Shown piece after piece: positions 55,671-61,989 of a stretch of DNA of 64,000 nucleotides. A model generated the notes under the pieces. That model was not told the DNA's origin. It saw nothing but the letters and a program-made list of their open reading frames with translations, and ran no database searches. The DNA lies in contig OY282460.1 of assembly GCA_958296295.1 (NCBI GenBank), positions 3,704,291 to 3,768,290 of the forward strand, read 5' to 3'. Numbering within the stretch: position 1 is the stretch's first letter; every line of letters starts with the position of its first letter. The DNA is from an uncultured Pseudomonadales bacterium (GTDB lineage: Bacteria; Pseudomonadota; Gammaproteobacteria; Pseudomonadales; Azotimanducaceae). The translations under genes were made by a program, and so were the position numbers.

Positions 55671-58220
55671 ATGTTGACCGCTTGGAAGCGATTCAACTAC
55701 GCCCTCGCGCTGCGCTTTCTGCGTTGGTGGGCGAGGCCCGTCGTCGGTGGCGTCGAACGGGTGCAACAGAATAGCGCCAACGCGCCGGCCGAACTCGTCT
55801 ACGCGCTCGCCAACCGCTCTCTGGCGGACATCCTGCTGCTCGACATCATCGCGGAGCAGAACGGCTTGCCAAGCCCGGTGGCGCCACTGCCATCGTTCGA
55901 CGAGGCGCGACGTTTCTTCTTTCTCAACCGGCCCACGGGGCTTTGGCGGCGCCACACGATGCGCAGCGCCGCCGCCTCGTCCGCCAGGATGCGGCGACTG
56001 CAAGCGAAACTGGGGGGCGGCAAAAACCGCACGGAAAGCGGGAACGGCGTCCAAGCGCTCCGGCTGGCGCCGGTTTCGATTTTCTGGGGACGCGCGGCAA
56101 ACAAGGACCGGTCTTGGATCCGCTCGCTCTTTTCCGAAGGCTGGGCGGTGTCGTCGCGGCTGCGCCGGTTGCTCATTCTGCTGTTCAACCGCCACGACAT
56201 ACTCGTCGCGTTCGCCGACCCGCTGCCGTGGCACGACATTGTCAAAGCCGGCGGAGAAGAGCTCGGCGAAACCCGTCTGACACGCCGAACGGCGCGGCTG
56301 TTGCGGGCGAAGTTCCGCAACGAGAAAGTTGTCGCGCTTGGCCCCGATCTCTCCCACCGGCGCACGCTCGTGGCGCAGATCCTGCGCAGCCCGGCAGTGG
56401 CCGCGGCGATCGACACCGAGGCCAGTGGCGAAAGGAGCCGCGACCGTTTGGTCCGCAAAGCGCGCAAGGCGGCTTTCGCCATTGCCGCCGACATGTCCTA
56501 TCCCGCCGTGCGCTTTCTCGATCGCCTGCTCACTTGGCTTTGGCACCGGGTGTATCAGGGCGTGCGCGTCTGCGGCTTCGACGGCGTTCGGGCTTTGGCC
56601 GAGACCCACACCTTGGTCTACGCGCCCTGCCACCGTTCGCATATCGACTACCTGCTGCTTTCGCACGTCCTGCATCACCGCGGCCTCATGCTTCCGCATA
56701 TCGCCGCCGGCGACAATCTCGATCTGCCACTGGTCGGTGGCGTGTTGCGCGGCGGCGGCGCGTTTTTCATGCGCCGCAGCTTCGCGCGGGACCGCGTCTA
56801 CACCGCCGTCTTCAACGAGTACGTGTATCAAGTGTTCCGCCGCGGCCACAGCATGGAGTACTTCGTTGAAGGCGGCAGAACGCGCACCGGACGCCTGCTG
56901 CCGCCGCGTTCGGGTCTGTTGCAGATGACTCTGGACGCGCATCGGCGCGGACTGCCGCGGCCGCTGGCGTTCGTGCCCGTCTATTTCGGCTACGAAAAGG
57001 TCATTGAAGCGGGCAGCTACATGGACGAGCTGCGCGGCGCGAGCAAGAAATCCGAAACGATGGGCGACGTGTTGCGCGGATTGCGGCTGGCGCGGCAGTT
57101 CTACGGCACCGCGCAGGTGTGTTTCGGCGAGCCCCTTCGGCTGGAGGACTTCCTGGCCAGCGCCGAAGCCGGCGCGGCCGAATATCCGGCGCGGCTGCTC
57201 GGCACCCGCATTCTCGCCGGCGTGAACCGCTGCGCCTTCGTCAACGCCACCAACCTGGTGGCCCTGGCCACGCTTTCCACACCGCGGCAAGCCATTGAGG
57301 AAGAGGCTCTCGTCGCGCAGATCGCCCTTTATCGAAAGTTGATTCTGCGCTCGCCACCGGGGACGAGATACGAAGTGGAAGACGCGCCCGCCGAAGAAAT
57401 GGTGCGTCGCGTGGAACGCCTCGGACTACTCGACAGAGAGGCGTCTTTTGGCGTCGGCGTTGTGCTAAGCCACGACAAGTTCACCTCGGTGTTGATGACC
57501 TGGTATCGCAGCAACGTGGCGCATGTGCTGGCGGCGCCGGCGTTCGCCGCGTGCCTGGTGGCGAACCGGCGCCGGGCGATTCGCGGCGCCCATGTCCGCC
57601 GCCTTTTCGCAACCGTGTTTCCCTACTTGGCGAGCGAGCTGCGACTCGAGGGCACCGGCGACGCCGACCATTGGCTGGCCGAACTCGAGGCGGCCGGCGT
57701 GATCGAACCGCGCGGCGACGGCTTCCTGCCGCCGGCGGACGCGACGGATCGTTTTCGTTTACGCCTGCTCGCCAATACGGTCATGCCCATTCTCGAACGC
57801 TTCTACATTGCCGCCATCCTGCTCCTCAACACCGGTGCCGGCGTGGTCGACCGCCGAGCGCTGCTGGCCGGTTGCCGCGCGAACGCGCAACGGATTTCCA
57901 AGTTGCACGGCATAGGCGCGCCGGAGTTTTCGGACGCGCGCCTGTTCGAGGGCTTCTTGCAAGGGCTTCTCAACAATGGCGTCGTGACCACGAACGCCGA
58001 CGGCAAGTTCGAGTTCGACGAGCGCATCGGCGAGATCGCCCGCGCCGGCCGCAGCGTCATCGCCGTGGAACTAAGGCAAGCGCTGGAAGACCGATCGGTG
58101 GCGGCCATCCCAACAGACGCCCCTGAAGACGCGAAAGCCAAGGCGGCCGCTTCGGCGGCCGTGCCCGCATCAACGGCCGCATCCGCGGCCGCGCCGGAGC
58201 AAAGCCCGCCCGCAACCTAG
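55671..58220 (+). CDS. plsB: Glycerol-3-phosphate 1-O-acyltransferase PlsB
   Basis: PlsB starts phospholipid synthesis by acylating glycerol 3-phosphate at the inner membrane. The 849-residue protein has the acyltransferase block I CHRSHIDYLLLSHVL (H-x4-D), block II GGGAFFMRRSF, block III VEGGRTRTGRLLPPR and block IV PLAFVPVYFGYEK. Length is typical. The C-terminal 40 residues are Ala-rich low-complexity. Its TAG shares CTAG with the rsmJ stop on the other strand. Confidence 0.95.
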   Translation: MLTAWKRFNYALALRFLRWWARPVVGGVERVQQNSANAPAELVYALANRSLADILLLDIIAEQNGLPSPVAPLPSFDEARRFFFLNRPTGLWRRHTMRSAAASSARMRRLQAKLGGGKNRTESGNGVQALRLAPVSIFWGRAANKDRSWIRSLFSEGWAVSSRLRRLLILLFNRHDILVAFADPLPWHDIVKAGGEELGETRLTRRTARLLRAKFRNEKVVALGPDLSHRRTLVAQILRSPAVAAAIDTEASGERSRDRLVRKARKAAFAIAADMSYPAVRFLDRLLTWLWHRVYQGVRVCGFDGVRALAETHTLVYAPCHRSHIDYLLLSHVLHHRGLMLPHIAAGDNLDLPLVGGVLRGGGAFFMRRSFARDRVYTAVFNEYVYQVFRRGHSMEYFVEGGRTRTGRLLPPRSGLLQMTLDAHRRGLPRPLAFVPVYFGYEKVIEAGSYMDELRGASKKSETMGDVLRGLRLARQFYGTAQVCFGEPLRLEDFLASAEAGAAEYPARLLGTRILAGVNRCAFVNATNLVALATLSTPRQAIEEEALVAQIALYRKLILRSPPGTRYEVEDAPAEEMVRRVERLGLLDREASFGVGVVLSHDKFTSVLMTWYRSNVAHVLAAPAFAACLVANRRRAIRGAHVRRLFATVFPYLASELRLEGTGDADHWLAELEAAGVIEPRGDGFLPPADATDRFRLRLLANTVMPILERFYIAAILLLNTGAGVVDRRALLAGCRANAQRISKLHGIGAPEFSDARLFEGFLQGLLNNGVVTTNADGKFEFDERIGEIARAGRSVIAVELRQALEDRSVAAIPTDAPEDAKAKAAASAAVPASTAASAAAPEQSPPAT

Positions 58221-58795
58221 CGCGATGGATCGCGTTGCGCCAGCGAACGATAGACGTCGAAACGCACGCTCCTGCCCCGCACCGACCAATCCGGCTCGCC
58301 AAGTCTCGGGCCATTGGCGCGCCGCTTCACCACCACGCGGTCCTTGGCCTGCGCCTCGGCCGCCTCGATCAACGCGACGAGTTCCGCGTCCGATGTCTCC
58401 CGGGCCAGTTTAGCGAGCATACGCATACGTTTGGCCGGCGCCGCGGATTTCGGGTGCGGGCCGAACATGGGATCAAAATAGATCACATCGAACGTGGCCT
58501 TTGCCCAAGCGTCGCGGCTGTCCTCGCAAGCAGTCGTCACCGCGCCGGTGTGCTTGGCGTGTGCCGCCACGGCTTCGACCCGCTCGCCCAGCAATCGATG
58601 CACGAGGGTTTCACATTCGCTCATGTGAACCACGCAGCCGAGCGCCGCCAAAACCAGTCCGTCGGTTCCCCATCCGGCCATGGCGTCGTGAACGCGCAAC
58701 CCCGGCGCGGCGCCGCACGCTTTGGCCAAAGCGGCGCGCCGGCCGGCCCGGGCGCGGCGCCAAACCACCGCGAGATCAAGATCGGGAGTCGCCAT
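58217..58795 (-). CDS. rsmJ: 16S rRNA (guanine1516-N2)-methyltransferase RsmJ
   Basis: RsmJ methylates G1516 of 16S rRNA. The 192-residue protein has the SAM motif HDAMAGWGTDGLVLAALG and the catalytic-region DVIYFDPMFGPHPKSAA, both close to RsmJ. It is shorter than the E. coli enzyme (about 250), starting at the second structural element; the ATG at 58795 overlaps the tsaB stop by 4 bases. The longer frame is a shadow of tsaB. The name rests on pattern plus its classical position near plsB. Confidence 0.82.
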   Translation of the reverse strand: MATPDLDLAVVWRRARAGRRAALAKACGAAPGLRVHDAMAGWGTDGLVLAALGCVVHMSECETLVHRLLGERVEAVAAHAKHTGAVTTACEDSRDAWAKATFDVIYFDPMFGPHPKSAAPAKRMRMLAKLARETSDAELVALIEAAEAQAKDRVVVKRRANGPRLGEPDWSVRGRSVRFDVYRSLAQRDPSR

Positions 58796-59544
58796 CAGAC
58801 GCCCGGTTCGGGCGTGTTCGCCGCGGAGACTCGCCAAGGGCTGTCGCCTTCCACATAGTACGGCAACGCTCGCGCCGGCGATGTCGCCGTGGCAATGCGT
58901 TTCGCCGCGACGGCGGCAAGGATGCGCGGGCTGACCGAGAGCTGCGAGCAATCGATCACGTCTTTGTCAATTTGCGTGGCGGGGGCGGGGGTGGGGGTGG
59001 GGGCGGGGGTCGGTGTTGGCGTTGGTGTGGGTGTTGGGGTGGGCGTGGTTGGGGTCAACCGATCGAAATCCAAACACTCCACTCCCGTTTTCGAGAATCG
59101 ATAGCGCGCCAAGTAGCGCCAGCCAACGCGAGAGGGCCGCGACAGCCATCGAACACCGGTCATGCCGGTCGCCAACCGCACCGCTTCGGCAGCGACCTCC
59201 GAGCTCGGGACGGCGATCACTTGGGCGCCGACCGCGAACGCCAGCCCCTGCGCTACCGCCGCGCCGATGCGCACGCCGGTGAAAGACGCCGGCCCTGCGC
59301 TGAACGCCACAAAGTCGAGATCGGATCGATCCATCGCGGCGCCGCGAATCACGTTGTCCACCATCGACAACAGGTGCTCGCCCTGCATCCTCGGCGCGAA
59401 GCGCGTATGCTCCACGCAGTCCGTCGCAGGTACCGCCACCCTTGCCTCCGCTTTTGACTCCGCAGTTTCCGCAACGGTTTCCGAGCGGGAAAGAGCCACC
59501 GAGCAAACGTCTGTCGTCGTGTCTATGGCGAGCAGATTGATCAC
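58795..59544 (-). CDS. tsaB: tRNA threonylcarbamoyladenosine biosynthesis protein TsaB
   Basis: TsaB is the scaffold protein that activates TsaD in making t6A on tRNA. The 249-residue protein shows LLAIDTTTDVCSVAL, HLLSMVDNV and FSAGPASFTGVRIGAAVAQGL with the family glycine pattern. Unusually a Thr-Pro repeat (about residues 163-190) is inserted in the C-terminal half. The GTG at 59544 is 18 bases from the divergent moeA start. The downstream rsmJ overlaps it by 1 base. Confidence 0.9.
   Translation of the reverse strand: MINLLAIDTTTDVCSVALSRSETVAETAESKAEARVAVPATDCVEHTRFAPRMQGEHLLSMVDNVIRGAAMDRSDLDFVAFSAGPASFTGVRIGAAVAQGLAFAVGAQVIAVPSSEVAAEAVRLATGMTGVRWLSRPSRVGWRYLARYRFSKTGVECLDFDRLTPTTPTPTPTPTPTPTPAPTPTPAPATQIDKDVIDCSQLSVSPRILAAVAAKRIATATSPARALPYYVEGDSPWRVSAANTPEPGV
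58981..59009 (+). repeat. Five G5 runs separated by single bases, in tsaB Thr-Pro repeat
   Basis: Five runs of five Gs are separated by single C or T bases, a very strong G-quadruplex pattern on the plus strand (template strand of tsaB). It belongs to a longer GT-rich tandem tract to about 59055 that encodes the Thr-Pro insert. Confidence 0.85.
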
Positions 59545-59562: not shown

Positions 59563-60813
59563 ATGCTAGAAGCCCGCCCCTCTGAGTTGTTGAACATCGA
59601 CCGCGCGGTCGAACGGTTGCTCGCGTTGGCAAGTTCGGTGACCGAAGTGGAAACGGTTGCCCTGTCCGAAGCTGTCGGCCGCATCAGCGCCGAGGAAGTG
59701 CTCGCGCCGTGCGATCTGCCGCCTTTCGACGCTTCCGCAATGGACGGCTACGCGGTGTCCGCGGCGGGCGCGAACAACACCCGCGTGAAACGGTTTCGCG
59801 TGGTCGGCGAGAGCCTGGCCGGTCATCCGGCCACTTGCCCCGTAACCGAAGGCGCCGCGGTGCGGATCTTCACCGGCGCCGTCTTGCCAACCGACGCGGA
59901 CGCGGTGTTGTTGCAGGAAGACGCCACCACCGGCCGAGGGTTCGTGTCGACTGCCGAGCCGGTGCGTTCCGGGCAGCATGTGCGTCGTCGCGGCCACGAC
60001 ATCGCCACCGGCGCCACCCTTTGCGCCCCGCACACGAAGCTCTCGGCCTACCACGCCACTTGGCTGGCGGCATGCGGTATCGCTTCGGTGCGCGTCAAAC
60101 GTCGCGTGCGGGTGGCCGTCGCTTCCACCGGCGATGAACTGACAGCGCCGGGCCAGCCGCTCGGAATGGGCCAGATATACGATTCCAATCGCTTCGCCTT
60201 GTCCACGCTGCTCGGCCAAAAAGCCTGCGACATCGTTGATTTGGGTTGTCTCGCCGACGACCGCGAAGCCGTTCGAGAAGCGCTGGCGAACGCCGTCCGA
60301 CACGCGGATCTGATCGTGACGAGCGGCGGTGTTTCCGTGGGCAGCGCGGACTTCGTCAAGGACGTGATAGCCGAATTGGGCGAAGTGGAGTTCTGGCGCA
60401 TCGCCATGAAACCGGGCAAGCCGCTGACCGTCGGGCGTATCGACCAAGCGTTGGTGATCGGATTGCCGGGCAATCCCGTCTCCACCATCGTGACCTACCT
60501 GCTTTTCGTCGCCCCGGCCATAGACAAGACCGCGGGCGCAAAACCTCCCGAACCACTGATCTTGCGAGCGCGGCTTGAAAGGCCGGTGCGCCACACGCTT
60601 GGCCGCCGGGAGTATATGCGCGGTGATTTGCGCACGAGCGATGGCGAACTGCTCGTGCGCACCACGGGAGACCAAAGCTCGAACCGCCTAAGCACCTTCG
60701 CAAACGCGAACTGTCTGGTGATCATCGACGAAAACGTGAGCGACATGGCCGCCGGCGAAACGGTTGGCGTGATTCCGCTGCAAGACGAAACGGCGCATCT
60801 GCTCTGTAAATGA
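59563..60813 (+). CDS. moeA: Molybdopterin molybdenumtransferase MoeA
   Basis: MoeA inserts molybdenum into molybdopterin-AMP. The 416-residue protein has PFDASAMDGYAV, EGAAVRIFTGAVLPTDADAV, the MoCF domain VASTGDELTAPG, TSGGVSVGSADFVKDV and GLPGNPVSTIV, covering all four structural domains. The start at 59563 (ATG) is 18 bases from the divergent tsaB. No other molybdenum-cofactor gene lies in the window. A hairpin follows its stop. Confidence 0.94.
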   Translation: MLEARPSELLNIDRAVERLLALASSVTEVETVALSEAVGRISAEEVLAPCDLPPFDASAMDGYAVSAAGANNTRVKRFRVVGESLAGHPATCPVTEGAAVRIFTGAVLPTDADAVLLQEDATTGRGFVSTAEPVRSGQHVRRRGHDIATGATLCAPHTKLSAYHATWLAACGIASVRVKRRVRVAVASTGDELTAPGQPLGMGQIYDSNRFALSTLLGQKACDIVDLGCLADDREAVREALANAVRHADLIVTSGGVSVGSADFVKDVIAELGEVEFWRIAMKPGKPLTVGRIDQALVIGLPGNPVSTIVTYLLFVAPAIDKTAGAKPPEPLILRARLERPVRHTLGRREYMRGDLRTSDGELLVRTTGDQSSNRLSTFANANCLVIIDENVSDMAAGETVGVIPLQDETAHLLCK

Positions 60814-60997: not shown

Positions 60998-61852
60998 CTA
61001 GCTGGCGGCGCGCCGGCGGCGCTTCTTCCTCGGTTTGGGTTCCAACGTCGCTTGGGCGGCTTTCAACTTTGCGGCTTTCTCTTTTTCCAGCGCCTTGAAG
61101 GCTCGCGTCGCGACCTCCTCGCGGGCCTTCGCCTTCTTGGCTTCCGCCTTCGTCAGCTCCGCGAGTTTGCCGCCGCGGAATTTCTCAACCGCTCGTTCGA
61201 GCTTGGCGTTGATGCGATCGGTCGCCGCCAGTTCCGCTTGGCGCAAGCGCACCGAGACGGCGTTGGCCTTGGCCTTGTAGCGGTCGTCCGCTCGCAATTC
61301 GGCTACCCGCGCCTTCGCTTCGCGCGTTTGCGCCCGGTACGCTTCGGCCTTGTTCTTGGCGCGCGCCACTTTCGCGCGCATCTTCTTCACTGCCGTTTTG
61401 TCCGCCGCGGTACCACTCGCTTTCGCCTTCGCCCGGGCGGCGGCAGCCGCTTTCTGCACATCCAGCACGACTTGGCGGGCACCCTTGAGCAACGCCACGG
61501 CGCGTTTCGCCGCACCGTCGGCGCGCACCGTCTGCGGAGAAACGGGAATGCGCCGACCGTCAACGGCAGGCGGCGCCTTCGGCTTGCGGCCGCCACGCTT
61601 CACGGCCGGTTGGGCGCTCTTGGGCGGCCTGCCGAGACGTTTCTTTGGCGCGCCTTTCGCTTCCTTCGCGCCGGCCGCGCTCTTCGCGCCAGCCGCGCCA
61701 GCCGCACGAGCCACCTTGCCCGCCTTGGCCTTTTTCGGCGCCGCACTTTTCGCCGGCGTCTTCACGGCCGCGGCGGCGGCCTTCTTGGGCGGTCTGCCAC
61801 GACGCTTTTTCGGCGCGCCGGCAGGTGCCGCTTTGGATTTCGCTCTTGCCAC
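60998..61852 (-). CDS. Histone H1-like Lys/Ala-rich AT-hook protein
   Basis: The 284-residue protein is very basic and rich in Lys, Ala and Arg. The N-terminal half carries AT-hook-type cores (KKRRGRPPKK, KKRLGRPPK, RGGRKPK) between KAAP-like repeats; the second half is a long charged helix (KAKAREEVATRAFKALEKEK). This resembles AlgP/H1-like nucleoid proteins of pseudomonads. It probably binds AT-rich DNA minor grooves. The GTG at 61852 is chosen on the start of the basic region. Low complexity limits homology claims. Confidence 0.8.
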   Translation of the reverse strand: MARAKSKAAPAGAPKKRRGRPPKKAAAAAVKTPAKSAAPKKAKAGKVARAAGAAGAKSAAGAKEAKGAPKKRLGRPPKSAQPAVKRGGRKPKAPPAVDGRRIPVSPQTVRADGAAKRAVALLKGARQVVLDVQKAAAAARAKAKASGTAADKTAVKKMRAKVARAKNKAEAYRAQTREAKARVAELRADDRYKAKANAVSVRLRQAELAATDRINAKLERAVEKFRGGKLAELTKAEAKKAKAREEVATRAFKALEKEKAAKLKAAQATLEPKPRKKRRRRAAS

Positions 61853-61989
61853 AGATCCCTCGCCTAATTGCAAATCACGATGCGGCAATGGTAGTGCAAT
61901 TCCGCAAGATGTCTACCCCTTTCTCACCGCTGTCACCGCTGCCACACACCTTGCCGGGGCACGACGCCGTTTCGTGCTTCGACCATCTG

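Follow-up and report, generated by a model that had tools for sequence, protein, structure and literature searches.

TsaB (YeaZ) is a subunit of the tRNA t6A-modification complex. Two forms of the protein have been described: a long form with an insertion in the C-lobe, found in E. coli, Salmonella, and P. aeruginosa, and a short form, found in T. maritima and A. aeolicus. The C-subdomain of known TsaBs varies in length and fold, and Lu and colleagues described a 20-residue beta-alpha-beta insertion in E. coli TsaB relative to the proteins of A. aeolicus and T. maritima (PMC11648230). Contacts with TsaD, TsaE, and tRNA have been placed at the GPGSFTGVR motif and the C-terminal tail (PMC9654439, PMC11648230). 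Bacterial LCRs are enriched in Pro and Ala and occur frequently in E2 subunits and TonB (PMC6821194). A search of the literature for reports of a proline-rich TsaB insertion yielded nothing relevant.

In this study, we analysed a tsaB gene that lies in a 64,000-nucleotide stretch of DNA (hereafter the window) and encodes a Thr-Pro/Ala-Pro repeat within the C-lobe. We consider, with a probability of about 0.8, that a hexanucleotide repeat expanded in frame, and specifically in this lineage, within a surface loop that tolerates it, and that this single-copy TsaB is otherwise ordinary. The features are collected in Table 1.

Table 1. Positions of the tract, its host gene, and the neighbouring genes in the window.
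Feature	Positions	Strand	Basis or remark
tsaB, 249 aa, GTG start, t6A complex subunit TsaB/YeaZ	58795..59544	-	ORF, TIGR03725, fold match
Thr-Pro/Ala-Pro repeat, 26 residues (residues 164-189)	58978..59055	-	Sequence and frame check, TRF; without counterpart in 15 congeners
Strict (T/A)P x11 core, eleven 6-bp units	58981..59046	-	Direct sequence reading
Five G5 runs with one-base loops, G-quadruplex sequence pattern on the template strand	58981..59009	+	Sequence and G4Hunter 3.27
GnT motifs: G5T x3, G4T x2, G3T x1	58987..59055	+	Predicted T-to-G point-mutation hotspots, rule of PMC12344412
rsmJ-like methyltransferase (PF04445)	58220..58795	-	Conserved neighbour; start overlaps tsaB stop as TGATG
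moeA, divergent neighbour	59563..60813	+	Conserved neighbour
plsB, convergent with rsmJ	55671..58220	+	Conserved neighbour

Results

Host gene and neighbourhood

An earlier note on this DNA had assigned the gene to tsaB, and the assignment was borne out by the TsaB equivalog model TIGR03725 (102.6 bits; cut-off 69.3) and by the predicted fold. PF00814, the Pfam model of TsaD/TsaB, also matched the protein. When the model of the window TsaB was searched with Foldseek, TMt values of 0.73-0.79 to most TsaB chains were obtained; VIA Z values to solved TsaB chains were 19-24, that of P. aeruginosa YeaZ being 23.6 over 189 residues at 2.2 A. The helical-bundle motif GPGxxTGxR reads GPASFTGVR with one mismatch (the near-invariant Gly at residue 86 is Ala), and the likewise near-invariant pair H54-N55 is Q-G in the alignment. 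Judging from these residues, Q-G at 54-55 and Ala at 86 could indicate an altered rather than ordinary TsaB function.

Only one tsaB was found in the genome, which also encodes the partner TsaE (126.7 bits, over the cut-off). A second, TsaD-like match lies in a 523-aa open frame and is presumably TsaD. The gene order moeA-tsaB-rsmJ-plsB is common to most congeneric species. Further along the window, a Lys/Ala-rich ORF (60998-61888, minus strand) has repeated RGRPPK motifs and by eye resembles AT-hook or histone H1-like proteins.

Sequence of the tract

On the minus strand, the tract peptide is found in the context FDRL-TPTTPTPTPTPTPTPTPAPTPTPAPA-TQIDKD. The earlier note had given the Thr-Pro/Ala-Pro repeat a length of about 28 residues; the repeat itself stands, and its length is corrected to 26 residues. 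TRF detected a period of 6 with 11.3 copies. In the (T/A)P core, the third bases are mixed in the 5' half, and the 3' half is near-pure (ACC/GCC)CCC. The overlapping frames that are open across the tract (ORFs of 221 and 318 aa) showed no other sign of being genes, and dual coding was set aside.

The five G5 runs with one-base loops of the same note were all recovered; they start at 58981, 58987, 58993, 58999, and 59005, and each spacer is a single C or T. Its claim of a strong G-quadruplex pattern on the template strand likewise holds as a sequence pattern: G4Hunter gave 3.27 for the G5 part and 3.16 for the best 25 bases in the tract, the runner-up in the 64 kb being 1.88. Three overlapping matches to G5N1G5N1G5 were observed, against none in 200 simulated windows generated by a first-order Markov model of the window. 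The tract is the sole site with at least four GGNGTN units in the 4.33 Mb genome, and a genome-wide search for G-quadruplex patterns showed no other cluster of five G5 runs.

Codon pattern and probable growth of the repeat

The differences between units were compared by codon position. Adjacent units differ 10 times at position 3, three times at position 1, and never at position 2 (binomial p 0.0016), and departures from the majority base occur at 9/22 sites of position 3 and 2/44 elsewhere (Fisher p 0.0005); both p-values are optimistic because slippage copies units, whereas the tests treat copied units as independent. The differences are concentrated at position 3; therefore, the frame and the (Thr/Ala)-Pro alternation were kept while silent sites drifted. 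The Pro codons of the core are CCC (6), CCA (4), and CCG (1), whereas CCG makes up 57% of the Pro codons in three neighbouring genes. This CCC/CCA-rich core therefore points to copying of units, not to residue-by-residue evolution. The near-pure 3' half and the mixed 5' half suggest that the most recent growth occurred at the 3' end.

Because the units are 6 bp long, gain or loss of whole units changes the length of the loop, stays in frame, and cannot switch the gene off. A contingency-like locus, at which gain and loss of units between strains tunes TsaB by length, would be consistent with the period-6 repeat, the near-pure 3' half, and the absence of the tract in related species. However, a 6-bp unit in the middle of a coding sequence can switch neither the frame nor promoter spacing, the degenerate 5' half should lower slippage, and the genome has a MutS-type gene; we regard such a locus as unlikely. 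The MutS-type gene also speaks against loss of mismatch repair as the cause of the expansion.

G-runs on the template strand

The G-quadruplex pattern is mainly a side effect of codon usage, in that the G5 runs come from CCC codons placed directly after ACC or GCC. As the template strand is the G-rich one, the mRNA is C-rich and would not itself carry a G-quadruplex. A quadruplex may form in the DNA at the tract, to judge from the base pattern. Such a structure in the template could have been selected to slow transcription or replication and thereby regulate tsaB-rsmJ, as the tract is the top G4Hunter place of the window and the only five-G5 cluster in the genome-wide search. Against this, the half of the tract at 59010-59046 has few long G-runs, yet its peptide pattern is the same; changes at position 3 break the G-runs and keep the peptide; the orthologues of relatives do without these G-runs; and the G5 runs follow from the codons. 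Selection on the G-rich strand is hence very unlikely.

A T that follows a G-run mutates to G faster, by about 5-fold to more than 1000-fold depending on the flanks (PMC12344412). The plus strand of the window contains six G5T motifs, three of which are in the tract, and a T-to-G change at five of the six GnT motifs of the tract would turn Thr into Pro. The persistence of these motifs suggests either youth of the tract or selection.

Longer G-runs were seen elsewhere. The genome of the window has poly-G runs of 14-21 bases at 1936954, 2052265-2052295, 2956451, and 3441953 (L091-L094). The second of these, a G21-A-G9 tract, belongs either to the region directly upstream of an ORF for a family 2 glycosyltransferase or to an N-terminal extension of that ORF; it may be a homopolymer of variable length or an artefact of sequencing. 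A related draft genome (G014) has poly-G runs of 49 bases (C26:19808-19856) and 37 bases (C33:11745-11781), one at a contig end and the other adjoining Ns; both are probably sequencing or assembly artefacts.

G-runs are error-prone, and poly-G beside contig ends or Ns in that draft raises the question whether the tsaB tract is itself an artefact of sequencing or assembly in a G-rich stretch. This is highly improbable, because the reading frame is open through the tract and continues in frame into the conserved YVEGDSPW tail; moreover, the 5' half of the tract is not rich in homopolymers.

Comparison with relatives

TsaB was present in all 15 other species of the genus that were compared, with one genome per species, and the tract was found in none of the 15; the tract thus varies between species, and it may, as the earlier note proposed, also vary in length within one. 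A genus-wide habit of Thr-Pro repeats was also considered and rejected, as the window genome has the pattern only in tsaB; GGNGTN matches in three congeners did not fall within clear (T/A)P genes. In the wider bacterial family, long (T/A)P-type tracts occurred in 6/61 genomes, each at a different locus. By eye, the other five look like an E2 acyltransferase linker, two lipoprotein-like linkers, a membrane-protein-like linker, and one doubtful short open frame.

The tract occupies a slot that follows a strand with FDxL at its end and precedes the next conserved helix. The slot is short in the congeners, and in the alignment of other, long-form relatives it is filled by a longer segment with a G-x-x-x-x-W strand. 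Long-form relatives and E. coli-type TsaB have about 20-26 extra residues there, and Salmonella TsaB aligned with a genus-rich profile showed a 26-residue insertion at the tract slot. The 20-residue E. coli insertion of PMC11648230 is likely to lie in this same slot. The C-lobe span between the R motif and the YVEGDSPW tail is 67-72 residues for short forms and 89-110 for long forms; the tract takes that of the window TsaB to 92, a value within the range of the long forms. The description of tsaB as a usually compact gene is therefore misleading at this site, where alignments, spans, and the published comparison (PMC11648230) show the slot to differ by 20-30 residues among ordinary TsaBs. One further tsaB match (L060, JAGWBL010000141.1) has an in-frame stop after residue 143, likely a draft frameshift or sequence error.

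In the tree, the long forms were set apart from the rest at 97/97, and the window TsaB fell on the short-form side with G013 as the nearest row. When the tract was masked and poorly filled columns were removed, the long forms still separated at 98/100. Support for the branch joining the window and G013 was 88/82, and 65/70 with the tract masked. Because the window groups with the short forms, the tree makes it more likely that the long-form segment was lost first and the tract arose later. However, the tract may also be a transformed or degraded remnant of that segment, as an AU test of grouping the window with the long forms gave p 0.099, short of a formal rejection.

Predicted structure of the loop

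An AlphaFold2 model of the window TsaB was built from a 24-sequence input. The pLDDT was at least 90 for 144/249 residues and below 50 for residues 171-174 and 176-191, which lie between the strand of residues 155-165 and that of residues 196-198. In the sister species, a well-modelled 8-residue loop joins the equivalent strands (141-152 and 161-163). Because the same two elements are joined in this way there, the tract is best read as an enlarged surface loop. The earlier note had proposed a structural model as a check on whether the insert is a surface loop, and the two models taken together predict a disordered surface-loop segment in the window TsaB. In sequence, the tract is away from the GPGSFTGVR motif and the YVEGDSPW C-terminal tail. 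A second insertion of about 19 residues (window 59430-59490, TsaB residues ~19-38) lies in the loop preceding the third strand and was modelled with low confidence; among the species aligned it was present only in that of the window, L051 having a 4-residue one.

The loop could instead be a functional replacement for the C-lobe segment lost by the clade, in which a stiff, extended (T/A)P stretch fills the slot. The slot is shared with the long form, the length is similar, and the Thr/Ala-Pro alternation has been kept. Furthermore, the 20-residue E. coli insertion has been suggested to prevent a TsaB-TsaB sheet of the thermophile type (PMC11648230), and by analogy the tract could block edge-to-edge pairing of TsaB with itself. 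On the other hand, 15 congeneric species live with the short form, AlphaFold2 gives the tract no structure, and the match in length may be chance. We consider a functional replacement improbable. That the repeat replaced a lost structural element, restored the size of the protein, and altered the pairing of TsaB with itself or with TsaD, TsaE, or tRNA seems quite improbable.

Discussion

Taken together, these findings are best explained by growth of an in-frame hexanucleotide repeat in a surface loop of TsaB. The starting point was probably a short loop rich in Pro, Thr, and Ala, on which replication slippage would then have acted. On the models, an 8-residue surface loop of the C-lobe would have grown into a disordered loop of about 30 residues, at the site where the clade has a shorter segment than long-form TsaB. 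The expanded loop is likely to be extended, or polyproline-II in character. TsaB presumably tolerates the tract because the loop lies between C-lobe elements, outside the conserved GPGSFTGVR helical-bundle region and the YVEGDSPW tail. Selection has preserved the frame and the (Thr/Ala)-Pro alternation as third bases drifted, and the G5 runs are mostly a by-product of the codon sequence.

With this history, the locus is a clean, tree-placed example of how a compact core enzyme can gain a disordered loop through in-frame growth of a repeat, here at a site of existing length differences among natural TsaBs. It allows one to ask, in a testable form, if TsaB places no constraint on its C-lobe slot or if assembly of the t6A complex depends on what fills it. 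The locus also illustrates that codon choice in a GC-rich genome can, as a side effect, produce a striking G-quadruplex pattern.

The window protein resembles known TsaBs in family score, fold, the GP(G/A)SFTGVR region, the R motif, and the C-terminal tail; it differs from them in the Thr-Pro/Ala-Pro repeat that fills the slot and in its substitutions at the near-invariant H-N pair and at the Gly of GPGS. In composition and predicted disorder, the tract is similar to the bacterial Pro/Thr/Ala-rich linkers of E2 acyltransferases, of TonB, and of post-lipobox regions. Unlike those linkers, it does not connect two domains but is embedded in a globular domain of a cytosolic enzyme. The feature is of an ordinary kind, and what is unusual is its host protein, an enzyme that is compact and cytosolic and carries the tract within one domain. 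A further parallel is found in the amino-acid tandem repeats of Borgs (PMC9879509), which share with the tract a unit divisible by three, an in-frame position, a Pro/Thr-rich composition, and disorder, which for the TsaB tract is predicted. In contrast to the Borg repeats, which are nearly perfect at the nucleotide level, the DNA of the TsaB tract is degenerate at third bases, lies on a bacterial chromosome-sized contig of 4.33 Mb, and is a single case in its genome.
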